The notes under the pieces are model-generated. The model had not been told where the DNA came from. It was given only the letters and a program-made list of their open reading frames with translations, and did no database searches. Positions 33,684-62,514 of a stretch of DNA of 64,000 nt are shown one piece after another. Location of the stretch: positions 372,001 to 436,000 of the forward strand of contig NZ_MWQK01000005.1 in NCBI RefSeq assembly GCF_002210425.1, read 5' to 3'. Numbering within the stretch: the stretch's first letter is position 1; every line of letters begins with the position of its first letter. The translations under genes and the position numbers were made by a program. Source of the DNA: Fibrobacter sp. UWB2. Its GTDB lineage: Bacteria; Fibrobacterota; Fibrobacteria; Fibrobacterales; Fibrobacteraceae.

Positions 33684-33718
33684 TCATAAACGAATTTCAT
33701 AAATCAGCTCTCTACCCA

Positions 33719-33749: not shown

Positions 33750-33751
33750 CT

Positions 33752-33790
33752 GTCATGCCCGCGCATTCCGGCCCTTCGGCATCGCCAACC
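33752..33790. repeat. Partial interspersed hairpin element
   Basis: TGTCATGCCCGCGCATTCCGG followed by GGCATCGCC: the reverse-orientation start of the ATGACA-tailed family, with a broken stem. Confidence 0.4.
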
Positions 33791-33927
33791 TTAGCGGGAC
33801 TTGTAAAAATCATTTTATAGACAATTCATCCATAAACATGGAGCGCAAACGCGTAACATTCATCACATCTGGAATTAAATTAGTTTATAGTGAGGTGTGT
33901 CTTAGGAGTTTGGTAAAAGGAGTACGT

Positions 33928-35451: not shown

Positions 35452-35480
35452 AGATTTCCTATACACTCTCTAATGTTCAA

Positions 35481-35509
35481 GGGCTCGCCGGAAACGGCGA
35501 GCCCTTTTG
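35481..35509 (+). terminator. Terminator after esterase copy 2
   Basis: GGGCTCGCCG pairs perfectly with CGGCGAGCCC around GAAA, followed by four T. In the other direction it also lies just past the end of the convergent phosphohexomutase gene. Confidence 0.82.
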
Positions 35510-35529
35510 GTTTAATTTGTTGTTTGCGA

Positions 35530-36870
35530 CTAAATCAATTTTTCGACTTTACTACAAAGAGTCTCAGCTTCTTCAGCAGTCGGAGCTTCGGCAATCACGC
35601 GGATCACGGGTTCCGTGTTGCTGGCGCGCACATGCACCCAGGACTTTTCACTCCCGAGCCAGAGACCGTCGCGTTCATCCGTCTTCCAGCCGGCAAATTC
35701 TGCCTTGACCTTCGGGAGAATGTCAGCAACCTTCTTGTCGCCGAGTTCGAACTTTTTCTTCGGCATCACGTAAGCCGGATTTTCAGCCACGAACTTTTCC
35801 GGACCGCCGTTGTGGTGGGCCATCCAGCTAAGCACAAGTGCTGCAGCCACGAGGCTATCGCGACCGTAGTGGAGTGCCGGGAGAATCACACCGCCATTAC
35901 CTTCGCCACCGATGACGCAACCGTTTTCGATCATCTGGAGGCTAACGTTGATTTCACCGACTTTGGCGCGGCTGAATTCACAACCGTACTTGGCGGCAAC
36001 ATCTTCGTTCATGCGGCTCGTGGAGAGGTTCACGCAAACGCTACCCTTCTTCTGGGCAAGCACTTCGTCCGTTGCAATCGCGAGCGTGTATTCTTCACCG
36101 ATACTTTGTCCCAAACCATCGACGAGAGCGCAGCGGTCTGCATCCGGATCCACGGCAAAGCCAACAGCACAGCCGTTATCCTTGACAGCCTTGCGCAAAT
36201 CACCGAGGTTTTCAGGAATCGGTTCTGCTCCGCGCGGGAACGTGCCATCCGGGCTGCAATGAACGCGAACAACTTCGCAACCGAGCTGTTCCAAGAGACG
36301 CGGCACAATAAAGCTACCGGCACCATTCACAGCATCGACAGCGACCTTGAAATGCTTGGCCTTGATGGCTTCGACATCCACGAACGGAATCTTAAGCGTG
36401 CCATCGATATGAATGCCATCGGCATCCGGGGCAACTTCGTACTTGCCCATCGTGCGGTAATCTGGATAGCTGAACTGGTTAGCATCAGCGAGAGCAAAGA
36501 GCTGCTTCACATCATCCGGACCGAGGAAAAGACCCTTGTTGTTGAGGAACTTGAGAGCGTTCCATTCGAGCGGGTTATGGCTAGCGGTAATGATGATGCC
36601 CGCATCAGCCTTGAAATGCGTCGTCAAAAGTTCCACGGACGGAGTCGTCGAAAGGCCCACATCCACCACATCCACGCCAGAAAGGCGGCAAATACCAGCA
36701 ACAAACTGCACGATGGCATCACCTGTGGGGCGGCTATCGCGACCAATCACCACGCGTTTTGCCTTCGTGATTTCGAGGAATGCACGCACGTGGCTCTGCA
36801 AGATCTGCGGAGTAAGGGTATCACCAACTATTCCGCGGATACCAGAAATAGAACGCATCAGTTTAGACAT
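35530..36870 (-). CDS. Phosphoglucosamine mutase / phosphomannomutase family
   Basis: 446 residues. The four family loops are present: catalytic phosphoserine Ser97 in ITASHNP, metal loop DPDADRC, sugar-specificity loop GGEGNGGVI and phosphate-binding RASNTEPVIRV. The length and GEGNGG loop favour GlmM or an archaeal-type phosphomannomutase; the substrate cannot be fixed from sequence alone. It isomerises hexose-6-P and hexose-1-P for envelope sugar synthesis. GGAG precedes the ATG, and a cupin gene ends 21 bases upstream, so the two probably form an operon. Confidence 0.88.
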   Translation of the reverse strand: MSKLMRSISGIRGIVGDTLTPQILQSHVRAFLEITKAKRVVIGRDSRPTGDAIVQFVAGICRLSGVDVVDVGLSTTPSVELLTTHFKADAGIIITASHNPLEWNALKFLNNKGLFLGPDDVKQLFALADANQFSYPDYRTMGKYEVAPDADGIHIDGTLKIPFVDVEAIKAKHFKVAVDAVNGAGSFIVPRLLEQLGCEVVRVHCSPDGTFPRGAEPIPENLGDLRKAVKDNGCAVGFAVDPDADRCALVDGLGQSIGEEYTLAIATDEVLAQKKGSVCVNLSTSRMNEDVAAKYGCEFSRAKVGEINVSLQMIENGCVIGGEGNGGVILPALHYGRDSLVAAALVLSWMAHHNGGPEKFVAENPAYVMPKKKFELGDKKVADILPKVKAEFAGWKTDERDGLWLGSEKSWVHVRASNTEPVIRVIAEAPTAEEAETLCSKVEKLI

Positions 36871-36891
36871 ATTTTCTCCAATAAATTAAAC

Positions 36892-37224
36892 TTAGCCAAG
36901 CTCCGGGACCGTCGCATAAAAGACGAGATCTTCCGGACCTTCATTTATCAAGCTGTGGGAATGGCCCTTCGGGCAGAAATGGCACTGGCCTGCTTCGACG
37001 TATTCCACGCCGTCATCAAAAAGAACCTTGCCCTTGCCCGAGACAAAGAACATAATTTCGCTGTTGGTTTCGTGCTTGTGAAAACCGATAGATGCACCAG
37101 CTTCGAGCGTGCCGTGCATAATGCGCGTCGTGCCGTCGAAATACATCTTGGCCTTGTATTCTTTTTCGCCACCCTTAAAATTCGGGAGAACAGTCGTCTC
37201 CATGCCTTTTAAATCAATAATCAT
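36892..37224 (-). CDS. Small single-domain cupin protein
   Basis: 110 residues. Cupin motif 1 is present as GASIGFHKHETNSEIMFFVSGKG and motif 2 as QCHFCPKGHSHSLINEG, giving His/Glu metal ligands. It may be a sugar isomerase-like or binding protein; the neighbouring phosphohexomutase suggests sugar metabolism, but this is inferred. An AGAGGT site precedes the start. Confidence 0.85.
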   Translation of the reverse strand: MIIDLKGMETTVLPNFKGGEKEYKAKMYFDGTTRIMHGTLEAGASIGFHKHETNSEIMFFVSGKGKVLFDDGVEYVEAGQCHFCPKGHSHSLINEGPEDLVFYATVPELG

Positions 37225-43890: not shown

Positions 43891-45651
43891 TTACTTTACA
43901 ACCGCATTGGCGTGGCCCAAGTAAATGGCCTGCAAAGCGCCAGCGAGATATGCAAGCGGAGCGTTCCAGTTGATGGCCACTTCGTTTGTTGCATAGCTGC
44001 AACGGTTATCGATGTAGGCAAGTGCCGGCTTGTCTGCAACAGCGTAGTTCGGGCACTTCCAAAGTTCCTTGCCATCGAGATTGATATCCTGCTTGCCCAA
44101 GTGCGGGCCGCCCACGAGCATGCCCGGGACCGGATCATCAACAAAGTCAGATTCGCTCACACGGTGATGCGGGTTGCGCGGGCTTCTGTAGCCAAAGCCA
44201 GTCACGTACGTCATTTCAATCGGGTTCTTGCCCAAGAGGTAATCGAGGCACTGCTGTGCGCCATCCAAATAGCTCTTGTCACCCGTGACATAATAAGCGT
44301 GGAGTAACACGATTCCGTTGTTTGCCATGGCACTGTTACTGCCCCAGTTCCAGCTAGACGGAAGAGCCGGGAGTCTGTATGCACTCGTATCGCCAACCGC
44401 ACGAAGTTCGTTTGCAGCGGCAAGCAATGCCTTGCGAGCGGCACCACCGAGCTTTGCGCCAAAGTCAGCAGAATCCAAAGCTACATGGTAAACAGCGAGC
44501 ATATTCACATCGCCCCACCACGGTCCATCGCTTCTGATCTTGTAAGCGCTCAAGTCGTTGAGATAATTCTTCTTCTTTGTGGCGCGGAAAAGTTCCGTTG
44601 CAGCAAAGGCAAATTCATCCTTGCCGTCTTCGCCGCCATACGTATAGTCGCCCGTCTGCACATCGGAGGGTTGCTTGTACAAAGCCTTCGGATTGTGCTT
44701 TGCCCAATAATAGGCGGCACCAGAAGCCTTGAGCATGCGGTCTGCAAAAGCCTTGTCAAACGGTGCATACACGCGAGAAGCCTGAGCCATCACTGCCGCA
44801 AAGTCAAGTGTTGCAGTCAAGCTCTTTTCAATCGCGTAACGCTTTGCGCCATCAATTTCAGGCATCGTGCTGGAGCCGAACTTGAGCGATGTGAGCTTGT
44901 GGTAAACACCACCGTCCTTGTCCTGCATCGAAAGCATCCAGTCCAGATTCCAGCGGATTTCTTCGAGGAGCGCCGGCATCTTCGGGAATTCACGCGGGAT
45001 GTTCCACTGGAGCGTATCCATGAATGCCGGGAAGTGTTCATAAAGTTCCAAAAGCGTAAACACGGTAATGCCCGAGTTCACAATGTACTTGCCGTAATCA
45101 CCGGCATCGTACCAGCCGCGCTGCGACTTGATAATCTTCGGGTCGGCCTTCTTTGGAGCGGGCTTGCCCTTGGACTGAGCAACAACCGTTGCCGTCGGCA
45201 AATCCGTACCGTAAACCGTCACGCTATCGTCGATGTGGCCAGCCGCACGAGCCCACTTGCCCGCATAGCGCGTATCGAGAGCCATGCCCGCACGCTGGAA
45301 ATAGAACCACTTGAGAGCAGCCTTCGTCAAATCTTCATAGACGTTCTCGCCAATCACGACCGGGTTACCGATATAGCCGTCTCTGTACAGGCGGTACGTG
45401 CCCGGCTTCTTGATCGAAGAAATATCGTACGTCTGGACTTCTTCGCCACTGTAGTCCCAATCGTAGACCATCGGGGCTTCGAGCGTAAGCACCGTGTTCC
45501 CAGCCATGTCGCGGACTTCGAGCGGGTTCGCGTCGTTACCGGGGATGACGACCGTCTTTTCGGATTCGGGGGCAAACCCAAGCTGGTTCACCAGCGGGAT
45601 TGCAAAAGTCGGCACCGCAAAAGCAAGCGCGGCAAATAGATGTTTACGCAT
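43891..45651 (-). CDS. Secreted glycoside hydrolase family 9 endoglucanase
   Basis: 586 residues from the ATG at 45651 with GAGG seven bases upstream. Signal peptide 1-17; an N-terminal Ig-like CelD_N domain (about 18-100, VNQLGFAPESEKTVVI); GH9 (alpha/alpha)6 barrel from about 105. Catalytic residues are visible: Asp182 and Asp185 in RGWYDAGDYGKY, the SPRNPHHR loop and the proton donor Glu557 in YATNEVAINWNAPLAYL. It hydrolyses cellulose internally. There is no cellulose-binding module or dockerin, typical of Fibrobacter cellulases. It is a single-gene unit with its own terminator. Confidence 0.95.
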   Translation of the reverse strand: MRKHLFAALAFAVPTFAIPLVNQLGFAPESEKTVVIPGNDANPLEVRDMAGNTVLTLEAPMVYDWDYSGEEVQTYDISSIKKPGTYRLYRDGYIGNPVVIGENVYEDLTKAALKWFYFQRAGMALDTRYAGKWARAAGHIDDSVTVYGTDLPTATVVAQSKGKPAPKKADPKIIKSQRGWYDAGDYGKYIVNSGITVFTLLELYEHFPAFMDTLQWNIPREFPKMPALLEEIRWNLDWMLSMQDKDGGVYHKLTSLKFGSSTMPEIDGAKRYAIEKSLTATLDFAAVMAQASRVYAPFDKAFADRMLKASGAAYYWAKHNPKALYKQPSDVQTGDYTYGGEDGKDEFAFAATELFRATKKKNYLNDLSAYKIRSDGPWWGDVNMLAVYHVALDSADFGAKLGGAARKALLAAANELRAVGDTSAYRLPALPSSWNWGSNSAMANNGIVLLHAYYVTGDKSYLDGAQQCLDYLLGKNPIEMTYVTGFGYRSPRNPHHRVSESDFVDDPVPGMLVGGPHLGKQDINLDGKELWKCPNYAVADKPALAYIDNRCSYATNEVAINWNAPLAYLAGALQAIYLGHANAVVK

Positions 45652-45805
45652 ACAAAACCTCATTTTTGTCAAAAAATACCTTTTCTTTTGTAAAAGCGTA
45701 CCTACACCACCCATTTTAATGTTTACTATAGGCAACGCTAAGTGTATCGAGTGTATTAATCAGACGAGAGAATGCCACTTCGTGGCTACAGACGAAAGAC
45801 GAAAG

Positions 45806-45840
45806 AAAAAATCCTCGGCGCTTGTTGCGTCGAGGATTTT
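45806..45840 (-). terminator. Terminator of the outer-membrane operon
   Basis: AATCCTCGACGC and GCGCCGAGGATT (minus strand) pair around AACAA and are followed by a T6 run. It lies 62 bases after the GH18-like stop codon. Confidence 0.85.
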
Positions 45841-45901: not shown

Positions 45902-46957
45902 TTACTTCTTCTTGCCAGCCTTGTAGTTCACGCCCGGACGGAGTTCGAGGCCAACCGTCACGAGGAGCGAGACGATCGGTTCGTAGTGGTCCTGGGAGAG
46001 GTCGTACACGGCAACGCCTGCCATGCCTTCGCTCTTCACGTGCTGGGCAACAGCCTTCACAGACGGGATACCCATGAACACGATAGATTCGGTTTCGCTC
46101 ACAGCCACTTCGGACTTGGAAGCTTCATCGAATGTCACCGTGTAGTCCGGCGTGTCAAAGCGGTTCATGAGTTCTGCATACGGAAGGTAACCTTCGTTAC
46201 CGCTGCCCACGCCCTGGTGGCTAGAGCCGAGGCCCTTAGCACCGGCAAAGGACTTACCGTAGAGGAACACCACCGGAGCAAGGAGGTCCTTATTCACGCC
46301 AGCAGCTGCAACAGCGTCAAGCGTTTCCTGCACAGAGTTTGCGCTCTGGTTCGGAACGAGGCTGCTTTCGCTTTCGGTCATGAGGTCGGTCATGAACACA
46401 TCCACGTAAGCGAGACGGTTCAAGGCTTCAGCCTTGTAGGCATCCATGCCGGCGGCCGGGTAAATCACGGCCGTCACCGTCGAGCCAGAAAGACCGTCGA
46501 CCAAGGCGTTCACCATCTTGGCGTAGTCTTCGGAATCATCCGTCGTGAGGTTTTGCCAGTCGAGTTCAACGCCATCGCCGCCGTTCGTTGCAATCCAGTC
46601 CTTCACGTTAGAGACGAAGGAAGAAAGCGTTTCGTCGGAGGAAGCGATAGCCTTGAGGCTCGATTCTGCTTCCATGCCACCCACGGAAACAATCAGCTTT
46701 ACGCCGTTTTCCTTGGACATGCTAGCGAGGTTCTTGAAGTTGTCGGCATCGTATTCGTCGGCAAAGGCAACCGCACCTTCTGCAGTCGGAGTGATCGACA
46801 TGTAATGGATGTCGGTCACGAGATTGTAGCGGATATCCTTGGCGTAGAACTGAGAATACTGACTCCAATACGGATAGAAGCCAATCACTTTGTCAGCGGC
46901 AGCCTGGGCCATTGCAGCGCCCATGGCAAGAGCCAATGTAATAACTTTAAAGTTCAT
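45902..46957 (-). CDS. Secreted GH18-fold protein with substituted catalytic Glu (probable non-catalytic glycan binder)
   Basis: 351 residues. Signal peptide 1-21; GH18 barrel strands VIGFYPYWSQY, DIHYMSI, LIVSVGG, VDVFMTDLM and GVAVYDLSQDHYE. The catalytic motif of GH18 is DxxDxDxE; here residues 128-135 read DGVELDWQ, so the proton-donor Glu is Gln135 (codon 46553-46555) and the first inner Asp is Glu131. Loss of this Glu abolishes chitinase activity in known chi-lectins, so it is more likely a glycan-binding protein. It ends a six-gene outer membrane operon. AAGAGG precedes the start. Its C-terminus is Lys-rich (AGKKK). Confidence 0.85.
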   Translation of the reverse strand: MNFKVITLALAMGAAMAQAAADKVIGFYPYWSQYSQFYAKDIRYNLVTDIHYMSITPTAEGAVAFADEYDADNFKNLASMSKENGVKLIVSVGGMEAESSLKAIASSDETLSSFVSNVKDWIATNGGDGVELDWQNLTTDDSEDYAKMVNALVDGLSGSTVTAVIYPAAGMDAYKAEALNRLAYVDVFMTDLMTESESSLVPNQSANSVQETLDAVAAAGVNKDLLAPVVFLYGKSFAGAKGLGSSHQGVGSGNEGYLPYAELMNRFDTPDYTVTFDEASKSEVAVSETESIVFMGIPSVKAVAQHVKSEGMAGVAVYDLSQDHYEPIVSLLVTVGLELRPGVNYKAGKKK

Positions 46958-46974
46958 TTTGAATACCTCTTATC

Positions 46975-47634
46975 CTATTGAATCAGACGATCAACGCCAG
47001 CTGCGTCACGGCAGTAAAGTCCGGTATCCGGAGTGAAGCCGGCAGCAGAAGTAGCCCTGGAGGCCTGCTTCTTTGCAATCTCCAAACTACTGCGGGCCGG
47101 GTTAGCGGCTTCGTCAGCACGGCAGGCACGGTAGGCCCAGCCATGTTCTCTACCGAATACGTTGAACTGCTGGGAGATGGCCACATAGTCCACAGGGACT
47201 GTGAGGAGCAATGCGGCATCGTCAGCAACGTTGATAAAGTTGTATTCAGCCAAGCTATTGAAAATTTCGTTAGCCGTGCTGTCAGCAGAACTCATCTGGG
47301 CAATGAGATCAGCCCACTGTTCATAAGAATGGGCGCCAATCTGCGGATGCGTGTAGATGGCACCGAGTCTTTCCGTATCCTGGAGGAATGCGGCATCATC
47401 GGCCTTCTTTACGGCATCGTAATCTTTACCAAGAGAGGTCTTAAACTGACTATTATAATCAGCCACATAGTCCTTGAGTTGGCGAGCACGCAGTTCAGGG
47501 TGCAAGGACATGTATTCCTGAGCGTTAAAGCCTTCCGGAAGGGCTTCTACATAAGGGTCGTTAACGGCCATCGAGCCGCAGGCGCTCAAAACGCCTGCCA
47601 CGAGAATCATCATGTACTGGTGAAGTTTTTTCAT
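46975..47634 (-). CDS. Lipoprotein of unknown function in the outer-membrane operon
   Basis: 219 residues from the ATG at 47634 with GAGG at good spacing. The lipobox VLSAC gives the modified Cys at 19 of MKKLHQYMMILVAGVLSAC. The rest is mainly helical, with paired Cys near the C-terminus (YRACRADE and LYCRD). I recognise no family. It starts 13 bases after the barrel protein stop and ends 17 bases before the GH18-like start, so it is co-transcribed. Confidence 0.75.
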   Translation of the reverse strand: MKKLHQYMMILVAGVLSACGSMAVNDPYVEALPEGFNAQEYMSLHPELRARQLKDYVADYNSQFKTSLGKDYDAVKKADDAAFLQDTERLGAIYTHPQIGAHSYEQWADLIAQMSSADSTANEIFNSLAEYNFINVADDAALLLTVPVDYVAISQQFNVFGREHGWAYRACRADEAANPARSSLEIAKKQASRATSAAGFTPDTGLYCRDAAGVDRLIQ

Positions 47635-47646
47635 TTTCAGCACCTC

Positions 47647-49788
47647 TTAGAAATTCACCGTCACATCGGCAAGGAGAACGAGCTTGCTGATGGAAATTTT
47701 GTTAACTGCAGGAACGCCGATAACGGAGTATTCGAGTTCGTTCTTAAGCAAACCGCCCTGGAGAGAGACGTAAGAGAGCGGAGCGAGCTTTACGCGAGCA
47801 CCACCGAGAGCGAGCATTTCCGTAGCCTTGGTCACCGCAGCGGCAGCCACAGCGTAGCCATTTCCGAATTCCTTCGTGTACATCTGGATGCCGCCGAGCA
47901 ATGCGATCGGACCCCAGACATCGGCAGTAAAGCCAGCAACAATGCGGTCAGCCTTGCGCTTCAGGTAGGAATCTTCTTCACCGTGAGAGTAAGAACCCTG
48001 GAGGAGAATCTGGCGGTCAAGACCAGCGAGAGCGCCAGCATCGACACCGAGACCTGCAGCGAATTCCGTGAACTTGTTTTCGGTAGAGATCGGAGCAAAG
48101 GTCACCGGATCATAGCCGATCAAGTTGCTCTGCGTAACCATGTTGACGCGGGCGTTGAAGGTCACCTTGTCAGCCCAGTTCACATCAACCTTGGCGGTAA
48201 TGCCCTTGCGGTCCGGAGTAGCCTTGCCGAGCGGCAATGCGAGGCTCACAGACGGGTCGATATCCATGAACGGCTTCAAGGAGAGCATTTCGAGCTTCTT
48301 GTAGGTGTTGCTCGTGTAACCGTTACGGTAGAAGTGACCGTTCTTGTAGTTGTTATCCAAGCGAGAGTACATATAGGGGCTTTCGCCAGCATCTGCGCTA
48401 AGGGAGTTAGAACCACCAGAAGTCATCAAGTTCGTGGCCTGCAACGTCGTAGAGTTGTAGACGCTGAAGTAGAGGTTTTCGAGGCTCGATGCACCGAAGG
48501 TTGCCAAGACGAGGCTATCAGCCGGGTTGCCATAGAGAGCGTTGCCATTGAAGATGGTCGAACGGCCCATGTAAACCGGAGTAGAGGCGAGTTCAGACCA
48601 GAAGCCCGAATCCGTCTGGAAGTAGCCTGCATCGACCTTGAAGTCGATATCGCTGATATTGCCCTTCACGAAGAGGTCTGCATAGAAGCTTTTGCCATCG
48701 ACATCAGCGTAATCTTCGTTCGTGTAGGTCGTCACAGCCTTCGTTACCGGCTTGAGGTAGACAAAGGACTTACCATCTTCCTTACCAGCCATGGCGTTGT
48801 AAGAAGTCTGGTTTTCCTTAACATTGTAGTCGCGGTCAACCTTCCACTTGGACATGGCAAATTCGCCAGTCAAGCCGAACGTCACAGGGAGTTCCGGGAG
48901 GAGCTTCTTGGAATCGAAAGCCACATCGGCAGAAATCACCATGTTGTTATCGTAGTAGATGGTATCGGCATCGCTAATCGGCCTAGAACGGCGGGTCTGC
49001 TTGCGGTCCATCAGGTTCACGAAGTTCACACCGAGATGAGCACCATAGGCATCGGCACCGACACGCACACCGAGGAGGTAGCGGTCAGCAAAGTCGAAGT
49101 CGAAGAACACCTGGTCAATCTTCTTGGCCGTGTTGCGGAGGCGAGCACCCGTGAGCTGGGCGGTGATGTTATCAAGCACGCTCACATTGCCGCTGTTGTA
49201 AACGACGTTGAGACCCTGCAACAGGCGACGGCTCGTAGTATCGAGGTTGCGCTTTTCAAGGGCTTCGCGACGCTTTTCAGCGAAGATTTCCGGTTCCTGA
49301 AGGATTTCGGTCTGCGGAGTGTAAATGGTGAGCGGGGTATAACCGACACGCATGTAACCCAAGTTGAAATCCACATGCTTGTTCAGGATGGTACCATCGT
49401 AGCTGAACCAGTGGCCGATAATCGGGTTGTTGTTTTCGTCGTAAGCGTTCTGCCAATCCTTGTGCAAACGCAACTGGACATCAATCATCGTCTCGGAGCT
49501 CGGACGGGCGGTCAAGCGGAGGTTCACATCCGTGAAGGCCTGGTTTTCCTGAGTCGGAGATTCGCTAGCGAACTGATCGGAAGAAGCGAAGGATGCTGCA
49601 ATGCCAGCCTTAGCCGTACCGTTGATCTTGAGGCCAAGCACAGCCGCATTGAGAGAATCCAGCTTTTCCAACAGGGATTTCTGTTGCGTCACAACCTCAG
49701 CCTGGTTGTCGGCGGCAAAAGCAGATGCTGCCGAGAAGGCTACTGCGGAGGTCAGTAAAAATTTGCGCATGTTCATATTGAAATTCAT
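47647..49788 (-). CDS. Large outer membrane beta-barrel protein A
   Basis: 713 residues. Signal peptide (FLLTSAVAFSAASAFA), a short heptad-like helix (LLEKLDSLNAAVLGL) and then long porin-like alternation of strands and loops ending in LVLLADVTVNF, a C-terminal aromatic as in barrel proteins. Residues 151-195 contain a signature shared with the next barrel protein: PLTIYTP, EPEIFAEKRR and LLQGLN. GGGAGG precedes the ATG at 8 bases. It belongs to the operon after barrel B with 15 bases between. Confidence 0.82.
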   Translation of the reverse strand: MNFNMNMRKFLLTSAVAFSAASAFAADNQAEVVTQQKSLLEKLDSLNAAVLGLKINGTAKAGIAASFASSDQFASESPTQENQAFTDVNLRLTARPSSETMIDVQLRLHKDWQNAYDENNNPIIGHWFSYDGTILNKHVDFNLGYMRVGYTPLTIYTPQTEILQEPEIFAEKRREALEKRNLDTTSRRLLQGLNVVYNSGNVSVLDNITAQLTGARLRNTAKKIDQVFFDFDFADRYLLGVRVGADAYGAHLGVNFVNLMDRKQTRRSRPISDADTIYYDNNMVISADVAFDSKKLLPELPVTFGLTGEFAMSKWKVDRDYNVKENQTSYNAMAGKEDGKSFVYLKPVTKAVTTYTNEDYADVDGKSFYADLFVKGNISDIDFKVDAGYFQTDSGFWSELASTPVYMGRSTIFNGNALYGNPADSLVLATFGASSLENLYFSVYNSTTLQATNLMTSGGSNSLSADAGESPYMYSRLDNNYKNGHFYRNGYTSNTYKKLEMLSLKPFMDIDPSVSLALPLGKATPDRKGITAKVDVNWADKVTFNARVNMVTQSNLIGYDPVTFAPISTENKFTEFAAGLGVDAGALAGLDRQILLQGSYSHGEEDSYLKRKADRIVAGFTADVWGPIALLGGIQMYTKEFGNGYAVAAAAVTKATEMLALGGARVKLAPLSYVSLQGGLLKNELEYSVIGVPAVNKISISKLVLLADVTVNF

Positions 49789-49803
49789 TCTAGTTACCTC
49801 CCA

Positions 49804-51963
49804 TTAAAATTCCACATTAATGGAAGCTTCAAAGATCGCCTGACTAAACTTGTGCTCGAAAGTCGTAGCACCGTCTACTGTATAGTAGTAGTCTGGCAAG
49901 TTGCGGAGTTCTTCACCAACAACAGCCAAGTTGTAGTCATTCTTGACATTGATCATGCCGAAGTTGATAGCAAGCCATGCATTGTCTGCGACGACATAGT
50001 CAAAGCCAACCATCCAGTGAGTCTGATTGCTCTTCATGAAAGGAACATCCAGACCGACATTCGGGTTGATAAGGCTCGAAGTGCCGTAATCGGTATCAAT
50101 CATCTGGAAGCCAGCTGTAAAGCCGAGGCGCGGCAAGAACTGGAAGGAAGCACCGATGTTGATGAAGTTGCTCGTAATCTTGGCTTCGGTACCGGCCTTC
50201 GGGGTAACCGTGTTTTCGGAACGCTTGAAGGAACCGGAAACTTCGGCAGCCTTGTTCAGACCAGCAAGCTTGGCGATATCGAACTTGGCGCCACCGCCAA
50301 ATTCCTTGTAGCTCACGTTATCGATAGCTTCGCTTTCCGGAGTCACCTGGTTGAAGATGTTCACGAGAGCCTGAGCTTCGATCTTGTTCTGCCAGTCACC
50401 CTTGAGGCTTACGCGGAAGCCCTTGCGGTTTGCAGTAGCAAGGCCGTTCGGCAATGCAGACTGGAGAGCCGGATCAATCATCTGGTTGATGAGAGCAAGC
50501 TGAGCGGCAGAGTAGACGTTAGAGCCCCAGGAGTTCTTGTTGTACGGAGCGATGTTGTAGCTCTTGGACTGACCATCCTTGAAGGCGTTGTCATCAGTAC
50601 CGAGAGAACGGGCCACCGGAGTAAACTTCGGGGAGTAGTTGTAGAGAGCGTCAAAGGTAGAGTAGAGCGGAGAGTTCACGCCGTACTTGACCGTGTTTCC
50701 GTCCTTGTCGGAGTTCAACACGCGCTGGGCGAAGAAGCTCGGGGACTGGGCAAGGTTGTTGAACCACTTTTCGTCGTTCATGACCACGTCCAAGCTAAGT
50801 CCTGCGCTCCATGAGTTTTCGACCTCGTAGCCAGCGTTCACGGTGGCGAGCAAGGCAGAACCGTTAATGGATTCTTCAGCTTCCGGAACCGTGAGACCAA
50901 GTTCATTGATGTAAGCTGGAGTCTTCTGCTTGTTGACGGACATGGCGTATTCGACGACCACGTCTGCAGAAAGACCCTTCTGCTTCACGAGACCACCCAC
51001 GTCAGCACCGGCACGGGCGCTCAACACAAACGTGTTCTGCGGACCGTATTCGTACGGGTTGATTTCCTGACGTTCGTATGCGTTTTCTGCGTCACCCGGA
51101 ACAAAGCCCTGCGGGTCGCGGTTCGGATGGCGGTAAGTGTAGGACTTCGAATTTTCATTATCGAAAATGAGCATCGGGGTCACACCGACATACACATTCT
51201 TCTGAACCGGCAAGAGTTCGATGTTGCCACCGACGAGCCACTTGTCCGTTGCAGAGGCAAGAGACGTACCAGCGATTTCATCACCCGGAAGGATATTGCC
51301 TTCAGCACCGGTAAAGTCAAGGACCGACACGCGGTTCACGCGGGCGAGGAAGGCCTCGGCGCGGAGTTCACCGATCATCGGATCAATTTCCTGACGGAAC
51401 TGGAGGTTAATACCCTGGAGGTTGCGCTTGTTGCCTTCGAGGAGCTGTTCCTTCTGGGCCATGTGGCGCTTGCGGGCGAAAATCGTCGGTTCGTACATGA
51501 TGTCGATACCGGGATTGTAAATGGAGAGCGGGGAGATTGCCGAGCGGAAGTCACCCACGGTCCAGTAGAAGTTCTTGCCGATGTTGCCTTCGACATTGAG
51601 CCACTTGGCTTCGAGAGTCTTTGCTGCTGCGGCAAAGTATTCCTGCATGCCGCCGCCAAGGCGCATAATCACGTTGGCGCGAACGTTTTCGTACGGACGG
51701 AAGCCGAAGCTCAAGTCAGCACTCACATATTCGTTGTGTTCGACATTCGGCATCTTGTTGACGCTATGCACGTCCTGGTCCGTAGAGAAGCTGGAACGCT
51801 GTGCAACAGCACGAATGCTACCACCAATTTCAACACCGCGCTTTGCATTGGCGCTATCAGCCTTGGCTTGCAATGCCTTTTGATTATCTGCAACAGCAGA
51901 AGCCGATGCGGCAACCGATGCAGTAAGAAGGGCGATCAAAATATTTTTCATTTTCATATTCAT
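49804..51963 (-). CDS. Large outer membrane beta-barrel protein B
   Basis: 719 residues from the ATG at 51963, since GGGAGG is about nine bases upstream and would sit directly on the earlier ATG. Signal peptide (ILIALLTASVAASASA), short helix (ALQAKADSANAKRG), then barrel strands ending in FEASINVEF. Residues 144-187 share the operon signature with barrel A: SPLSIYNPG, YEPTIFARKR and RNLQGINLQF. Overall similarity to A is modest but colinear, so they are old paralogues. The role is unknown; transport or adhesion at the outer membrane is likely. Confidence 0.82.
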   Translation of the reverse strand: MNMKMKNILIALLTASVAASASAVADNQKALQAKADSANAKRGVEIGGSIRAVAQRSSFSTDQDVHSVNKMPNVEHNEYVSADLSFGFRPYENVRANVIMRLGGGMQEYFAAAAKTLEAKWLNVEGNIGKNFYWTVGDFRSAISPLSIYNPGIDIMYEPTIFARKRHMAQKEQLLEGNKRNLQGINLQFRQEIDPMIGELRAEAFLARVNRVSVLDFTGAEGNILPGDEIAGTSLASATDKWLVGGNIELLPVQKNVYVGVTPMLIFDNENSKSYTYRHPNRDPQGFVPGDAENAYERQEINPYEYGPQNTFVLSARAGADVGGLVKQKGLSADVVVEYAMSVNKQKTPAYINELGLTVPEAEESINGSALLATVNAGYEVENSWSAGLSLDVVMNDEKWFNNLAQSPSFFAQRVLNSDKDGNTVKYGVNSPLYSTFDALYNYSPKFTPVARSLGTDDNAFKDGQSKSYNIAPYNKNSWGSNVYSAAQLALINQMIDPALQSALPNGLATANRKGFRVSLKGDWQNKIEAQALVNIFNQVTPESEAIDNVSYKEFGGGAKFDIAKLAGLNKAAEVSGSFKRSENTVTPKAGTEAKITSNFINIGASFQFLPRLGFTAGFQMIDTDYGTSSLINPNVGLDVPFMKSNQTHWMVGFDYVVADNAWLAINFGMINVKNDYNLAVVGEELRNLPDYYYTVDGATTFEHKFSQAIFEASINVEF

Positions 51964-51978
51964 CTTTAGCATCCTCCC

Positions 51979-54261
51979 TTAGAACCATGCCTTGGTTTCG
52001 GCAGCAATGTAATGGGAATGCCAATCATTGTCAGGAACGGTTTCGTCAGAGTGCGTCATGAACTTGTAGCGGAAGTGGAGACCCACGCGGTCAGAGAAGT
52101 CCCAGTCAAAGCCAAGGCCAATTGCGAAGTCCTTGTAGTTGATCGGAGCTTTCTTGTAGTAGCTGGTGTTCACTTCGTAGTAATAGGTATTCTTGGCAGT
52201 CTTGCTGGTACCGTTATCGGCGGTGAGCATCAAGTAAGCCTTGTCAGACCTGAACGTTTCGAGACCGACGATACCCACCATGTGGAAGGTCGGAGTCACG
52301 GCGACGGTCGGTTCAATCTGACCGAAGAAGCTCGTCAAGAGCACGTTGGACTGCTTTTCGGAAACGGCAAGCGGATTAAAGGAAGTAGAAATACCGGAGA
52401 GGGCAAAGAAGCCCGTCAGCATGACGTTACGGTCAGTGCCGATCCAGTGGCCGATATCGTAACCACCCATGAAGGAGAGGTAAGAAGACCACTTGGCATG
52501 TTCCGGAATTTCGCCCTTGGCAACCTGGTCACCATTTTCAAATGCGGCGAAGGATTCCCAAAGTTCCCAGGTACCACCATAGAGACCACCGCGCTGGCGG
52601 TACATCTTGACACCGTCAGAGGAGTTCTTGCTGGCACCGACACGGTTGATATAGCCACACCAGGAAGCGTTACCAGAGTCAGCCACAAAGAGCGGCTTGT
52701 GCTTGGTCCAGGAGTTGGAGCTTTCCCACATGTTACGGCCGTTCAGACGGTAGTTGAATGCAATCACGTCCGGACCAGCTTCGATCTGACGATGCTGGGC
52801 GTACTGGAAGTCAAAGTAACCGCGGTTGAAGCTCGGTTCCAACTTGAAGTTGATACCGGTCATGTTCGGGGAGTAGCGGAGAGCGCCACCGTTGAGGTAG
52901 GCTTCGTTCTTGCGCCAGCCCGGGAAGCGGGACGGGTTCGTCAAAGAATACGGAGAGTAGAAGCCCGGCTGGAAGAACACGAGTTCTGCAGTCATCGGCC
53001 AACCTTCGATATACTTGCTCTGGGCCTTGACATAAAGACCGAGCTTCGGGGAGTTAACCGTAGAAACGTAGCCTTCCTTGCGGCTGGAGTAACCGGAATT
53101 CATATTGACGGATTTATCAGCGTTAAGAGAATAATCAGCTGCGCCCGGATCCGGAACAAACGTCGTGGAGTCCGTGATGCTGACACCGATATCGCCCATC
53201 AAGAAGAGCTTCGGGGTGATATTGCCCTTGACGTCGGCAGTAATCACGTGAGTATTGAGGAGGACCGGAAGGCCGCCTTTGCTCTGGGTAATCCACTGCG
53301 TACGGAATTCATCTTCATAGATGATGTCCTTGTCGAAGGTAACGCCCATGTAGTTCACACCGACAGTCAGGTTGTCGGCAATCTTTTCCTTGGCGATACG
53401 GCCATGAAGGACGGTACCGCGCAAATCATAGCCACCCATCATTTCGAGTTCGCCCGGCTGGCCACCATACATGCGGAGACCGTCACGGGTACCCATGTCA
53501 GCATCAGCCGGCTGGGACACGAGGAACTGAGCCTTCATGTCGTACGGGAGCTGGTAGAAGTTCGCAAAGACGCCACCGAAAGAGCGGTTCGTCCAGAATG
53601 CACGACCACCTTCCTTGACCGGCTTGAATGCCTTTTCCTTATAGTAAGTAGAAACGGTCTTTTCGTCTTCGAAGAGTTCGTACTGCCACACAAAGCGCGG
53701 GTTCGTTTCACGTTCCCACATGGTAAGCGGAGAGGCGTTTGCCCAGATAACACCGCCTGCAGTAACGTAGGCACCGAACACACCGGCACGGATATCGACA
53801 CCGACGTTCATTTCTTCGTTGATGGTCGATGCATAGTAGTCGGTAGAGTGGTCAAACAAGACGCGTTCGTCGTTGTTGCCCGGAGCTTCAGTCGGGTTCT
53901 TGGCGAGTTTATTCGTGAAGATACCGCTCAAGTCAAACGGGAACATGAGGTTCGTAAACAGCGTAATGTAGGAGTTCGGCATGGCGACGATGTTCACGTT
54001 CAACAAAGCGTCAACGCTCGTACGTGCCTGGTCATCACGGACCCACGGGCTCTGTTCGGAATAGTGGAAATTCTTCAAACGGAAAGCCATATAACCGGAG
54101 ACTGCCAGTGGCAGATCGTCCTTGCCGAGAAGAGTCGATTCCATATTGTTGGAAAGAGTATCCAACGAAGCGTGAAGGGAATCAAGCTGCAACTGCGGAG
54201 GAAGAGCCCATGCAGCACCGAGGCTAGACGCTAGTAAAAGGGAAGAAACTGTTTTGCGCAT
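51979..54261 (-). CDS. Large outer membrane beta-barrel protein C
   Basis: 760 residues. Signal peptide (LLLASSLGAAWA), a helix (LDSLHASLDTLSNNMES) as in barrels A and B, then strands ending in HYIAAETKAWF. The region SPLTMWERETNPRFVWQYELF is a looser counterpart of the signature in A and B, and the following TNRSFGGVFANFYQLP aligns with their ring of strands. It is the first barrel gene of the operon and starts 9 bases after the carbohydrate-binding-like gene. AGAGGA precedes the ATG. Function unknown. Confidence 0.82.
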   Translation of the reverse strand: MRKTVSSLLLASSLGAAWALPPQLQLDSLHASLDTLSNNMESTLLGKDDLPLAVSGYMAFRLKNFHYSEQSPWVRDDQARTSVDALLNVNIVAMPNSYITLFTNLMFPFDLSGIFTNKLAKNPTEAPGNNDERVLFDHSTDYYASTINEEMNVGVDIRAGVFGAYVTAGGVIWANASPLTMWERETNPRFVWQYELFEDEKTVSTYYKEKAFKPVKEGGRAFWTNRSFGGVFANFYQLPYDMKAQFLVSQPADADMGTRDGLRMYGGQPGELEMMGGYDLRGTVLHGRIAKEKIADNLTVGVNYMGVTFDKDIIYEDEFRTQWITQSKGGLPVLLNTHVITADVKGNITPKLFLMGDIGVSITDSTTFVPDPGAADYSLNADKSVNMNSGYSSRKEGYVSTVNSPKLGLYVKAQSKYIEGWPMTAELVFFQPGFYSPYSLTNPSRFPGWRKNEAYLNGGALRYSPNMTGINFKLEPSFNRGYFDFQYAQHRQIEAGPDVIAFNYRLNGRNMWESSNSWTKHKPLFVADSGNASWCGYINRVGASKNSSDGVKMYRQRGGLYGGTWELWESFAAFENGDQVAKGEIPEHAKWSSYLSFMGGYDIGHWIGTDRNVMLTGFFALSGISTSFNPLAVSEKQSNVLLTSFFGQIEPTVAVTPTFHMVGIVGLETFRSDKAYLMLTADNGTSKTAKNTYYYEVNTSYYKKAPINYKDFAIGLGFDWDFSDRVGLHFRYKFMTHSDETVPDNDWHSHYIAAETKAWF

Positions 54262-54270
54262 AAAATCCTC

Positions 54271-55014
54271 TTAAATCTCGTTGCGGAACGGATAGTGAGC
54301 CGGGCCTTCGTACGGCTTGCCATGCTTCTTAATCACAATATCGTCAATCCAGACCTTGAAGGATTCGTTTTCATCCTTGCGGACTTCAAGACGGAAACCC
54401 TTGAAGTTGGACCATGAGAACGGGAGCATCACTTCGCGCGTGTTCTTTGCATCCCAGTAAACACCGGTATTGCCGAAGAGCTTCAGAGGAATGCTGAAGT
54501 GCTTCCATTCTGTCGTAATTTCACCAAGGCTCTTGGAGCGGAGCTTCACCTGGAGGGATTCACCATTGCTCTTCACGCCATCGTCAACGAGCACGAACAA
54601 TGCGTTTTCACCACCCTGGGCGCCCTTGATCCAAAATTCGAGAACACCTTCTTCGAGATACGGAGTCAAGTCCACGGAACCCGCAATACAGATTGCGACA
54701 CCGGAATAGTCACTCGCGATAAGTTCAATTTCCATGGAGAGAGCTCCTTCCATGGCATACTTATCCGTGAGTACCGGTTCGGGGTTTTCACGCGGATACT
54801 GGTACGTGTAACCACCACCACGCGGAATTGCTTCACGCATGACAACGGTGACAACTTCCTTATCAGGACGGAACGGTTTAGGATCCTTCATGACAAAGTG
54901 GGACTGGTCGCGGTCGCGGTAATCGCTAAAACCGTAGCCAGCGAAAGAAGATGAAGCAAGAAGCATCGCCGCTAGAGCGGACTTCCAAATGGCTTTTTTT
55001 AAGTTTCCATTCAT
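54271..55014 (-). CDS. Secreted carbohydrate-binding-like (CBM11/ExoP-type jelly-roll) protein
   Basis: 247 residues from the ATG at 55014. Signal peptide (SALAAMLLASSSFA) then one beta-sandwich domain: YSGVAICIAGSVDLTPYLEE, GVLEFWIKGAQGGENALFVL, WKHFSIPLKLFG, FKGFRLEVRKDENESFKVWIDDIVI. That order (a strand with E-F-W-I-K-G, then W..v.IPL, then V.IDDI) is typical of CBM11/CBM30/ExoP-like domains that bind beta-glucans. It has no catalytic domain. As first gene of the outer-membrane operon it may present glucan to the barrels. The family assignment is inferred from pattern only. Confidence 0.72.
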   Translation of the reverse strand: MNGNLKKAIWKSALAAMLLASSSFAGYGFSDYRDRDQSHFVMKDPKPFRPDKEVVTVVMREAIPRGGGYTYQYPRENPEPVLTDKYAMEGALSMEIELIASDYSGVAICIAGSVDLTPYLEEGVLEFWIKGAQGGENALFVLVDDGVKSNGESLQVKLRSKSLGEITTEWKHFSIPLKLFGNTGVYWDAKNTREVMLPFSWSNFKGFRLEVRKDENESFKVWIDDIVIKKHGKPYEGPAHYPFRNEI

Positions 55015-55151
55015 AATAGGTACAATTCTCCAAATTCGGATCATCTACAATATAGCTTGTTTTTGGGAATTTTCGCTCCGGTATTTTGCAAAAAAGGCTT
55101 TGCAAAGCTAGATGTATCAACGGAATACCACTCGTAGAGCCACACAAACGC

Positions 55152-55168
55152 TGGACTCAAGCGTAAAC
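55152..55168 (+). repeat. Direct repeat copy 1 (putative operator)
   Basis: TGGACTCAAGCGTAAAC, identical at all 17 positions to the copy 82 bases away. Confidence 0.75.
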
Positions 55169-55233
55169 GGAAATTTTTTCGTTCGTAATGTTTCTTAATG
55201 TTTACAAATTAAATTTTTTGATGAGGCTCACAA

Positions 55234-55250
55234 TGGACTCAAGCGTAAAC
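55234..55250 (+). repeat. Direct repeat copy 2 (putative operator)
   Basis: TGGACTCAAGCGTAAAC, ending 17 bases before the TTGATT of the GH5 promoter. Confidence 0.75.
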
Positions 55251-55340
55251 ATAAGATAAGCATGTTTTTGATTTTCTATTTTTTGTTTTATATAGATTTT
55301 GAGAACACGCGTTTAAGCTCATAACCTTTTGGGGGTTACC

Positions 55341-56477
55341 ATGATTAAAAAGATTCTTTCAGCAATGGCAATCGGATGCGCCTTCTGGGCATGCGACAGT
55401 GGCTCGGCAACAATACCGACATCGGCCGGCAAGGGCAACACGAGCACGGCCGTCCCCGTAGACTACACCTTGGGAAGAACGATGAATGCGCTCCTTGGGC
55501 GCGGCATCAACCTGGGTAACTCCTGGGAATCCGACGGTTCCGATGATGGTGCCTGGAGCAACCCCATCCGTGACCAGGACTTCGCCACCATCAAGGCGGC
55601 AGGCTTCAATTCCGTGCGTATCCCGGTCCGCTGGCAAAATGGTTCTGACTACTCGACCCATACTGTGGACCCGAACCGATTGGCAGGCGTTCTCGAAGAC
55701 ATCCGCCTCGCCATCGCCCAAGGCCTTACTGTTGTCGTGAACTTCCACCACTACAACGAACTAAACTGCGCAGGTGGCGGCGGTAACGGCTGCACATACA
55801 ACCCCACCGAATACGAAGCCGAAAAGGCACACTTCCTTGCCCTTTGGGCTCAAGTGGCAACGGCCATGGGTGAATTCCAGGACAACCAGGTCGTGCTCGA
55901 AATCCTGAACGAACCGATCATCCCAAACGCCGATCGCGTGGACCAGCTGATGAACGAAGCTTACGCCGTCATCCGTGCAGCCGCTCCGGGCAAGACGATT
56001 ATGTTCGAAGCCTACCATGCCGCAAAGTTTGCCGACCTCTCGATGCTCCACTTGCCGCAAGACGGGAACATCATCTTCAGTGGCCACTATTACGAACCGT
56101 ACACATACAGCCATCAGGGGCATGGCTACAACTGCCTTGGCGATGCCGCATACGTCTCTACAGCGGACGAAGACCTGTTATCATACGTTGGGCTGGCCTA
56201 TAAGCTTTACCCGGACGTGAACGGAATAGACCAAGTTCCGTTGAACATGGGTGAATTCGGCGTGGCCGGTGGTGATTCCAGTCCCTGCCAATGGCAAGAG
56301 GGCGAGCCTCCCAGCGCAGCGCGCAAGGCCGCCTGGGCAAAGAAGGCCGCGCAGGCCGCTGTCAAAAACGGCATGTCGTTCCATTACTGGGGATTTGGCT
56401 ACACAGGCGGATTTGACGCCTACGAACCCAATGCCGAAACGTGGAACACAGGATTTCCTGGAGCACTCATCTTCTAG
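55341..56477 (+). CDS. Glycoside hydrolase family 5 lipoprotein (endoglucanase-like)
   Basis: 378 residues from the ATG at 55341, preceded by GGGGG. Lipobox AFWAC gives Cys18; a short linker follows and then the GH5 barrel (GINLGNSWES, VRIPVRWQ, VVNFHHYNE). The acid/base is Glu191 in EILNEP and the nucleophile Glu305 in NMGEFGVAGG; SGHYYEPY carries the conserved His/Tyr. It probably cleaves beta-1,4-glucan at the cell surface. It is divergent from the outer-membrane operon and shares the regulatory region with repeats. It converges on lpxA with a 31-base gap. Confidence 0.93.
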   Translation: MIKKILSAMAIGCAFWACDSGSATIPTSAGKGNTSTAVPVDYTLGRTMNALLGRGINLGNSWESDGSDDGAWSNPIRDQDFATIKAAGFNSVRIPVRWQNGSDYSTHTVDPNRLAGVLEDIRLAIAQGLTVVVNFHHYNELNCAGGGGNGCTYNPTEYEAEKAHFLALWAQVATAMGEFQDNQVVLEILNEPIIPNADRVDQLMNEAYAVIRAAAPGKTIMFEAYHAAKFADLSMLHLPQDGNIIFSGHYYEPYTYSHQGHGYNCLGDAAYVSTADEDLLSYVGLAYKLYPDVNGIDQVPLNMGEFGVAGGDSSPCQWQEGEPPSAARKAAWAKKAAQAAVKNGMSFHYWGFGYTGGFDAYEPNAETWNTGFPGALIF

Positions 56478-60144: not shown

Positions 60145-62514
60145 CTAATGTATAATCAGGAGCTTGCCCTTCTTAATCTTGGTCCCGCCACGGATGACAT
60201 ACTGGTAGACGCCCGGCGCCACAATATTTCCATTATCCATGCGTCCGTTCCATGCGGCACGGCCACCCGAAATCTGGTCGCCACTCATCGACACCACTAG
60301 CTTGCCGCCCCTGTTGTAGACATTGACCACAGCATCATCGGCGAGGTTTGCAAACGAAACAAACGCCTGCATCTTTGGACGGAACGGGTTCGGATACACC
60401 TTGACGTCTTCAGGGGCATCATTCGTCATGTTCTTTTCAGTACCGCGCAGGTCATCGCGCTTGTAACGGGTAATGCCATTTTCATGAGCAAACCACACCA
60501 TGCCAAGAACCGTATCCACTGCCACATCCTGGATCTTTTCGCTCAAGAGCCCATGGCGGGTCGTGAAATGTATCGTCGAAAGCGTATCCGGGCTCGTCTT
60601 GCGCGGAGTCAGGCGGTAAGCCCCCTGCGACGAAGTTCCCACCCAGAGGTTTCCGCGGCTATCGACATCGATACTTGTATAGCTTGCACCGCTAAGTCCG
60701 TTTGTCGAAAGCGGCGACTTCAAGTCCTTTTCGTCCTTGTCCCAATACACAAGTGCAGAGTTCGTGACCATCCAGACGTTATCGGATTTCGGTTCATAGA
60801 CCAAGTCGAGCGGAGTCGACGAAGAACCGCTAAACGTTTCCCTGTAAGTCGAATCCACCCAGGAAATATCCCCGCCCTTTGATTTCGGCAACGGGAACGT
60901 AAATACATCCAGGCCACCGTTTGCATCAAGCGACGGACCGGCACGCGTGCCCACGTAGACAATCCAGTTCTTACCGTCATCGCTCACTCGGGCATACATC
61001 GGGCCACCAATCGGCGTAGAGCCAACGTTGCTTGCGCAGGACATCGTCGTAGATTCACCCTTAATGTCAATGTAGACCAGGCTATAGCCCTTGTTCGATG
61101 CAGAAGTCGTCAAGTAGCCCATATTATCTGGCGCAAGTGTCGTCGAAACGGCAATCGTAAATATGGACTCGATGCTAGTACCTTCGTGCCAGTTGTCCAT
61201 GCAATAGGAATTGCCTGTGTCAGACAACGTGAACGTATTAATCAACGTATCAGCCCAGCCTTTATACAGGAAAAAGCCGTACCCCCAGAAATGGTACATG
61301 GCACCACCGGTCGGTAGCACCGACAGGACTTTCAAGTTATGCCCGCGGGCATCGGGACCATTCGCATAAGCCGGAACCGGGGGATATATAGGCACAGGGT
61401 CGCTCCACCTAAAGTCCTTGTCATCACCCGAGAAATAGTAGTAGGACAGGCGCCCATTATCGGTAGCCGCGAGGACACCGCCCGTCGGGAGCGCACGGAG
61501 TTCATAGACGCTTTCGAGAGGGAACGACTTGTAATCGGAAATATCGGTCAGCTTCTTGCCATCGTAGTGGAAAACCTTGTCAGGACCTGCCAAAACCGCC
61601 TGGCCCGACGGCTGCAAAGAAACCCAGCGCACAATGGACTTGTAAATAAAACGGACGTTCCTCTTGTTGCCTACAGTGGTCACCACGGAATCGAGCGCAT
61701 ACAAGGCGGAATCCTTCAGCACCTTCCCGCGGACAGTCACCATCTGGTCCGTGTCCGTAAAGACGGAGAACGTATCCAAAGCGACGCGCGTAAAGCCATC
61801 CTTGTCCCAGATTCTCATGCCTTCCGTAGAAAACGTCCTGATTTCATTATCCTTCCAGGCGATGCTCTTGATAGGAGTCTTGTCGCTTGATGCCTTCTGG
61901 ATAATTTTCCATGAATCCGGGTCGTAAAGCTTCACGTCGTCTTCAAGCTTGTCCCAGTCCATCTTGCGCATGTAAAGAGCTCCACCCGCCGCAACAATCA
62001 GGGAATCCCCACGGATATCCATCGCAGACACCGCATTTGCAGAAATGCTGATATCCGCAATCCTATCGATAGTAAGGATAGAGGTCATGGTCTTGATGCT
62101 AAAGAACGAAAGGCGGTCTTCAAAGGCAATGACAAGAACAGGGCCGCCCGCAAGCGCCATCCCCGGAATGACATGGGTATTGCTGCCGGCGTAGGCACGG
62201 CTCTGGATAACCCAGTGGCCATCCGACATCATTAGCGAAATGACGCCGTTATCGCTCACAGAAAAGACACCCGCATCCTTCGAGATAATCACGGCACTTA
62301 CAGACTGGTCGCCAAGGCCATTCGAAGTCGTGTACAGGTCATCGGCCGTACTTGCCCTATAGCGGACACCACCCGATGTCGCCATAAGCAGGCCCTCGCC
62401 ACTCGGGACAGCGGCCTTTATCGGGAAAGGGCGTGTAAAGTTAAGCCACAGGTCCTGCGCAAAAGACGATGTAGCGAAAACAAGGATACAGATAAGATGG
62501 AGCAAATTTTTCAC
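60145..62514 (-). CDS. PorZ-like two-propeller protein with C-terminal sorting/FlgD-like domain
   Basis: 789 residues. Signal peptide (LLHLICILVFATSSFA); beta-propeller repeats such as LLMATSGGVRYR, SVDSRGNLWVGTSSQGAYRL-type blades and VWMVTNSALVYWD; a C-terminal 85-residue domain beginning VKVYPNPFRP and including VVNVYNRGGKLV and NGNIVAPGVYQYVI, i.e. a FlgD-Ig or T9SS type A sorting domain. Length and order match PorZ, a component of type IX secretion that binds A-LPS. I cannot prove PorZ function; sensor-type propeller proteins are an alternative. It is followed by the small lipoprotein gene. Confidence 0.7.
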   Translation of the reverse strand: MKNLLHLICILVFATSSFAQDLWLNFTRPFPIKAAVPSGEGLLMATSGGVRYRASTADDLYTTSNGLGDQSVSAVIISKDAGVFSVSDNGVISLMMSDGHWVIQSRAYAGSNTHVIPGMALAGGPVLVIAFEDRLSFFSIKTMTSILTIDRIADISISANAVSAMDIRGDSLIVAAGGALYMRKMDWDKLEDDVKLYDPDSWKIIQKASSDKTPIKSIAWKDNEIRTFSTEGMRIWDKDGFTRVALDTFSVFTDTDQMVTVRGKVLKDSALYALDSVVTTVGNKRNVRFIYKSIVRWVSLQPSGQAVLAGPDKVFHYDGKKLTDISDYKSFPLESVYELRALPTGGVLAATDNGRLSYYYFSGDDKDFRWSDPVPIYPPVPAYANGPDARGHNLKVLSVLPTGGAMYHFWGYGFFLYKGWADTLINTFTLSDTGNSYCMDNWHEGTSIESIFTIAVSTTLAPDNMGYLTTSASNKGYSLVYIDIKGESTTMSCASNVGSTPIGGPMYARVSDDGKNWIVYVGTRAGPSLDANGGLDVFTFPLPKSKGGDISWVDSTYRETFSGSSSTPLDLVYEPKSDNVWMVTNSALVYWDKDEKDLKSPLSTNGLSGASYTSIDVDSRGNLWVGTSSQGAYRLTPRKTSPDTLSTIHFTTRHGLLSEKIQDVAVDTVLGMVWFAHENGITRYKRDDLRGTEKNMTNDAPEDVKVYPNPFRPKMQAFVSFANLADDAVVNVYNRGGKLVVSMSGDQISGGRAAWNGRMDNGNIVAPGVYQYVIRGGTKIKKGKLLIIH

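Follow-up and report, generated by a model that had tools for sequence, protein, structure and literature searches.

Among described systems that handle polysaccharides at the outer membrane, the SusCD polysaccharide utilisation loci (PULs) of Bacteroidota are close in layout, since they too unite barrels in the outer membrane, binding proteins at the surface and glycoside hydrolases within a single conserved locus. Such loci are also known to include disarmed GH18-like binders. The sugar porins chitoporin and maltoporin (LamB) represent another design, in which a plug-less barrel feeds a periplasmic binding protein and an ATP-binding cassette (ABC) importer. In Fibrobacter succinogenes, the mechanism of cellodextrin transport has been reported as unknown (PMC6851124). 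The MalA/TonB route of Caulobacter, proposed for this species in the same paper, concerns the same step, the passage of oligosaccharides through the outer membrane; no MalA-like protein was found by its authors. Here, a six-gene operon was analyzed in a 64,000-nucleotide stretch of Fibrobacter sp. UWB2 (contig NZ_MWQK01000005.1, positions 372,001 to 436,000), termed the window, from a Fibrobacter-type genome of 3.53 Mb. The operon encodes a CBM30 protein, three large barrels, a lipoprotein and a GH18 protein, and is divergent from a GH5 cellulase gene. It is probably a SusCD-free outer-membrane module that binds cellulose or cellodextrins and passes cello-oligosaccharides across the outer membrane. 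Unlike in the SusCD PULs, the genome has no SusD, the operon barrels have no TonB plug, and they fall into two unrelated families. Chitoporin and LamB are proteins of about 420 amino acids (aa), whereas the Fibrobacter barrels comprise 713-760 aa, occur as unlike pairs or triples and have no sequence relation to them. MalA is TonB-dependent, in contrast to the plug-less barrels described here.

Gene content and boundaries of the operon

An open reading frame (ORF) check of the window located six minus-strand ORFs and the divergent GH5 gene, listed here with the adjoining features.

54271..55044, minus strand: secreted protein with a CBM30 module only (Pfam CBM30, 6e-18), likely start at 55011 (MNGN...); counterpart in F. 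succinogenes S85 FSU_2007/Fisuc_1525
51979..54261, minus strand: Barrel 1 (B1), 760 aa, a barrel in AlphaFold2, forming an outer-membrane barrel family of its own
49804..51972, minus strand: Barrel 2 (B2), 722 aa, a barrel in AlphaFold2, from a second novel barrel family
47647..49788, minus strand: Barrel 3 (B3), 713 aa, an ancient paralogue of B2 according to hhalign
46975..47643, minus strand: lipoprotein of no known family, with lipobox LSAC in the translation
45902..46957, minus strand: GH18 protein (Pfam GH18), catalytically dead (DGVELDWQ); S85 counterpart CBP1/CBP-9, FSU_2012/Fisuc_1530
45806..45840, minus strand: intrinsic terminator closing the operon, AAAATCCTCG...CGAGGATTTTTT, from sequence reading, its stem also appearing in the computed fold
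55329..56477, plus strand: divergent GH5 cellulase lipoprotein (Pfam Cellulase, 1.6e-32); S85 counterpart FSU_2005/Fisuc_1523
55250-55234 and 55168-55152, minus strand: a pair of perfect direct repeats of 17 bp, GTTTACGCTTGAGTCCA, in the divergent GH5/CBM30 promoter region, the copies being 82 bp apart
43891..45735, minus strand: GH9 gene beyond the terminator, a separate unit (Pfam GH9, 3e-90); S85 counterpart FSU_2013/Fisuc_1531

The product types given by the first-pass annotation (a jelly-roll protein, now identified as CBM30, three barrels, a lipoprotein and GH18, with a divergent GH5 lipoprotein) were borne out by the ORFs, Pfam and AlphaFold2. In the operon and divergent gene, the Pfam search named only CBM30, GH18 and GH5, with no family above the cut-off for B1, B2, B3 or the lipoprotein. 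The tight packing of the genes was also recovered, although the gaps, described earlier as 9-17 bases, measured 9, 6, 15, 3 and 17 bp from the ORF coordinates and thus span 3-17 bp. The strong ribosome sites held for B1, B2, B3 and GH18, which are preceded by good Shine-Dalgarno matches, but not for the lipoprotein, where the match is weak. The single terminator claimed at the operon end was found as a strong stem with a T-run at 45840-45806, 3' of GH18 on the minus strand. A scan for consensus promoters and terminators gave no signal above shuffled expectation, and missed this terminator because of its loop. Because the operon ends at the terminator, the GH9 gene is treated as a separate unit; its membership was rejected, as the terminator intervenes and adjacency is patchy, being found in only part of the Fibrobacter loci.

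The CBM30 protein scored 65.7 bits against a Pfam cut-off of 27, with the N-terminal third of the model left unaligned, and matches solved CBM30 domains in the PDB (1e-11). It is the slowest-evolving protein of the operon, with a median identity of 87% to relatives against 34-69% for the others, and would be expected to bind glycan. The lipoprotein evolves fastest (median identity 34% within Fibrobacteraceae). A separate observation is that it diverges as if surface-exposed under diversifying pressure. The GH18 fold is supported by Pfam (6.6e-30) and by matching chitinases in the PDB, and the loss of the catalytic Glu recognized on first reading was confirmed, with Glu replaced by Gln in the motif. 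The Glu is absent from every Fibrobacteraceae copy with a readable motif, the position being occupied by Gln in 78, Ile in 6, Val in 3 and Leu or Gly in the remainder, where the counts refer to loci rather than species and the motif was unrecognisable in two copies.

Two families of plug-less barrels

AlphaFold2 predicted large barrels for B1 (predicted template modelling score, pTM, 0.76) and B2 (pTM 0.82), in which an N-terminal helix leads straight into the strands and no plug domain is present. All three barrels end in a C-terminal Phe. B2 and B3 are paralogous (hhalign E=3e-52). Homology of B1 to B2/B3 was unsupported at an hhalign probability of 3-15%, and B1 was set apart as a separate family. 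Profile and sequence searches yielded no specific Pfam match and no PDB sequence relative for either the B1 or the B2/B3 family. Foldseek on B1 and B2 returned only generic barrels at TM <0.5 (AlgE, TonB barrels, FimD, chitoporin, maltoporin), the two sugar porins figuring among the B2 matches. With respect to the LamB, chitoporin, OprD and AlgE families, neither PDB sequence search nor Foldseek (TM <0.5) revealed a sequence or close fold relation. SusD (PF07980) had 0 matches in the whole genome, with the control matching in Bacteroides, and Pfam found no TonB plug in the operon barrels, all four TonB-plug matches of the genome lying outside the operon; the reported absence of a SusC/SusD pair is thereby upheld.

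The barrels could instead serve the secretion or outer-membrane assembly of the cellulases and binding proteins encoded nearby. Linkage of the barrels to secreted GH5, CBM30 and GH18 proteins, together with the presence of AlgE and the FimD usher in the generic Foldseek list, would be compatible with such a role. However, Pfam profile searches detected no usher, chaperone or secretion domain in the operon, and the conserved linkage to importers and phosphorylases described below would be unexpected for a secretion system, which is regarded as very improbable.

Conservation and relatives in Fibrobacterota

All six genes keep the order CBM30-B1-B2-B3-lipoprotein-GH18 in 79 distinct Fibrobacteraceae loci, and the divergent GH5 accompanies them in 72. 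Gene-order conservation, proposed earlier as a check, is therefore evident, and since the six-gene order is kept in so many distinct loci, the arrangement is far beyond chance. The module is not specific to Fibrobacter, as first supposed, because modules homologous to it are found in most families of the phylum Fibrobacterota. B1 occurs in 145 of 168 Fibrobacterota genomes (80 of the 89 good ones), and in 135 of 138 loci a B2-family barrel comes after it, the remaining 3 being incomplete. In a named-genome scan for relatives, the best 80 of 128 were all Fibrobacterota. A Fibrimonadaceae genome (L144) carries two GH5 cellulases ahead of the operon on the same strand, in place of the divergent GH5. 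B1 is absent from all nine genomes of the phylum that have no GH9; outside Fibrobacteraceae it is present in 38 and absent from 10 genomes with GH9, against 0 and 9 without (Fisher p=1e-5, uncorrected for relatedness), a pattern in keeping with a link to cellulolysis.

Outside Fibrobacteraceae, the neighbours of B1-B2 in about 13 genera from five families include a complete or partial ABC importer with a binding protein of the SBP5 or SBP1 type. These loci also encode a CBM30-CBM11-GH51 protein, which frequently bears a lipobox. GH94-type phosphorylases, called by sequence signature with Pfam run on three of them, lie near B1-B2 in six loci (L184, L186, L190-L193). The GH94 of L186 scored 1279 bits as cellobiose phosphorylase against 438 as chitobiose phosphorylase, while the second GH94 of L190 matches both without deciding between them; an NCBIfam search gave no name for the GH94 or GH20-like proteins. 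One such locus and a chitin-type relative are arranged as follows.

L186:1-17213: two GH94-like genes, CBM30-CBM11-GH51 lipoprotein, B2, B1, two ABC ATPases, two permeases, SBP5
L054:2817-17835: chitin-type relative, CBM30-B1-B2-B3-GH20-GH18-GH18 plus a divergent GH18; the genus has an ABC/GH51-type B1-B2 pair as well

By gene content, the L186 locus would be a SusCD-free PUL-like unit outside Bacteroidota. The ABC-type loci contain no operon GH18 or lipoprotein, yet both barrels are retained. Among solved structures, the linked SBP5 comes closest to proteins annotated as binders of oligopeptides and mannosides, with chitin-oligosaccharide binders ranking next. Thermotoga members of the SBP5 group bind cello- and manno-oligosaccharides. 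In the window genome, homologous SBP5 genes (46% and 41% identity) and a CBM30-CBM11-GH51 gene are situated on other contigs, one SBP5 gene belonging to a full SBP5-permease-permease-ATPase-ATPase operon that has a cellulase-like gene nearby. The gene set for cello-oligosaccharides (ABC importer, beta-glucanase and cellobiose phosphorylase) is thus linked in the distant B1-B2 loci, and its ABC and GH51 members are unlinked in Fibrobacter. The corresponding S85 importers, FSU_1687 and FSU_0851, are listed as cellobiose/cellodextrin importers, and FSU_0382, the counterpart of the CBM30-CBM11-GH51 protein, has been confirmed as a cellulase (PMC6851124). What stays constant is a core of B1, a B2-type barrel and CBM30; the surrounding enzymes and transporters vary, tracking beta-1,4-glycan uptake.

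In genus g5 a second copy of the locus reads CBM30-B1-B2-B3-GH20-GH18-GH18, with a further divergent GH18 in 2 of 3 loci. To our knowledge, this second type of glycan locus has not been described. Its GH18 copies retain the catalytic Glu in 10 of 10 cases, some loci being counted twice. In quick, unrooted trees, B1 of Fibrobacteraceae, the chitin-type loci and f2 separates from that of the ABC/GH51-type loci (Shimodaira-Hasegawa-like approximate likelihood ratio test, SH-aLRT, 100), and the barrels at position 2 and those at position 3 group into two distinct clades, each spanning Fibrobacteraceae, chitin-type loci and f2, which argues that the three-barrel operon is ancient. Given this shared lineage, with the Glu kept in the chitin-type loci and lost in Fibrobacteraceae, the GH18 of Fibrobacter most plausibly represents a chitinase-type enzyme that became a binder, a putative relic of a chitin locus. 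With trees that are unrooted and quick, the direction of change would be from the chitin-type to the cellulose version.

Proposed passage of cello-oligosaccharides and alternative roles

By gene content and order, compared with PMC3079729 and PMC6851124, the region maps to FSU_2005, FSU_2007, FSU_2012 and FSU_2013 of S85, so that FSU_2008-2010 would be the barrels and FSU_2011 the lipoprotein. The S85 GH18 is the cellulose-binding protein CBP1/CBP-9 (PMC6851124 Table 1), and the jelly-roll counterpart is CBM30 (PMC3079729 Table 5). The first-pass description of a cellulose-related outer-membrane apparatus without SusCD or TonB plug gains support from both identities. A literature search found no paper naming FSU_2008-2010 or treating the operon genes as a system; the GH18 and CBM30 proteins were already known singly.

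From the observed gene content, linkage, conservation, trees, Glu loss and predicted barrels, the following process is proposed. The module would hold cellulose, or cellodextrins released from it, at the cell surface, with the dead GH18 (CBP1) and the CBM30 protein as glycan-binding parts and the fast-evolving lipoprotein as a surface or tethering part, possibly in one complex. B1 together with B2/B3 would provide the passage for cello-oligosaccharides, the most likely substrate in Fibrobacter, through the outer membrane. In Fibrobacter the SBP5-type ABC importer, the CBM30-CBM11-GH51 glucanase and a phosphorylase encoded elsewhere in the genome would complete the route, while in the distant relatives these would act from beside B1-B2. 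The Fibrobacter version would share its three-barrel lineage with the chitin-utilisation locus, GH18 being kept as a binder after the loss of Glu. The core is read as an outer-membrane binding and uptake module because its variable partners track beta-1,4-glycan uptake.

The same proteins might serve adhesion, with the barrels anchoring and presenting CBP1, CBM30 and the lipoprotein but letting no glycan through. CBP1 binds cellulose, as stated in PMC6851124 citing Mitsumori 1996, and is placed among the outer-membrane cellulose-binding proteins (PMC6851124, PMC4668043); the lipoprotein is fast-evolving and of surface type, and S85 grows tightly adherent to cellulose (PMC6204037). Nevertheless, the ABC-type loci, without operon GH18 or lipoprotein, keep both barrels beside importers and phosphorylases; the constant core is therefore tied to uptake rather than adhesion, and an adhesion apparatus is considered unlikely. 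Long cellulose chains might also be drawn into the periplasm and cut there, following a chain-entry model as cited in PMC4668043. The barrels are three and large, the dead GH18 and CBM30 could guide single chains, and endo-type partners are periplasmic in S85, namely GH9 Fisuc_1531, encoded directly downstream of the operon, and GH51 Fisuc_3111 (PMC4668043). On the other hand, no motor or energy coupling was found in the operon (no TonB plug by Pfam or AlphaFold2), most hydrolysis is argued to be extracellular (PMC4668043), and phosphorylases with an SBP5 importer suit short oligosaccharides, which makes a long-chain channel quite improbable. The threading of cellulose chains suggested earlier is thus possible but not the simplest reading, as the ABC importer and cellobiose phosphorylase in relatives point to soluble cello-oligosaccharides.

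Several points weigh against cello-oligosaccharide passage by the operon. In Fibrobacter itself, the ABC and GH51 genes lie away from it. The operon belongs to a three-barrel clade whose other enzyme-linked form is of chitin type, and the cello-substrate is therefore carried over from the sister clade, GH5 linkage and CBP1. The structure models are moderate in quality, the Foldseek matches are generic, and the need for three different barrels is not explained by an uptake model. In addition, culture fluid also contains abundant GH18 protein (PMC4668043), and Raut et al. favour a TonB-dependent route (PMC6851124). More tentatively, B1 with B2/B3 may constitute a novel class of glycan importers in the outer membrane, ancestral to Fibrobacterota and without relation to SusCD, TonB receptors or known porins, which would pass cellodextrins, perhaps even single cellulose chains, after transfer from CBM30 and a disarmed chitinase, the cellulose version having arisen from a chitin-type locus; this is possible, although we would not yet favour it.

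Co-regulation with a cellulase, which had been anticipated, finds no support in published data. GH18 Fisuc_1530 mRNA in S85 is highly and stably expressed on all substrates, in the same class as GH51 Fisuc_3111 and the cellodextrin phosphorylase GH94 Fisuc_2900 (PMC6204037), and on cellulose the GH18 protein changed -1.30-fold against +1.38-fold for GH5 (PMC6851124). That GH18, GH51 and the phosphorylase fall into one expression class counts in favour of the uptake reading. The 17-bp repeat is unique in the genome at <=2 mismatches and conserved in loci of the F. succinogenes group with a spacing of 81-83 bp. As a regulon-wide motif it was rejected, being genome-unique and not found (<=4 mismatches) in most relatives outside that group; it would support local control only.

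Elsewhere in the window, a protein with a Fib_succ_major domain is encoded at 934-2790, and at 60145-62514 a 789-aa protein whose C-terminus shows a weak CHU_C type IX secretion signal. Three consecutive genes at 32112-37212 are possibly another envelope cluster; weak carboxypeptidase-regulatory-like domains lie close to the N-terminus in the products of the first and second.

Fibrobacter is a main cellulose digester in the rumen, and the operon supplies candidate genes for the outer-membrane step of cellodextrin uptake, FSU_2008-2010 with FSU_2007, 2011 and 2012. If the proposal is true, glycan uptake independent of SusCD and TonB would extend across the phylum, and a chitin-type locus would have been turned to cellulose, with the chitinase kept only as a binder.

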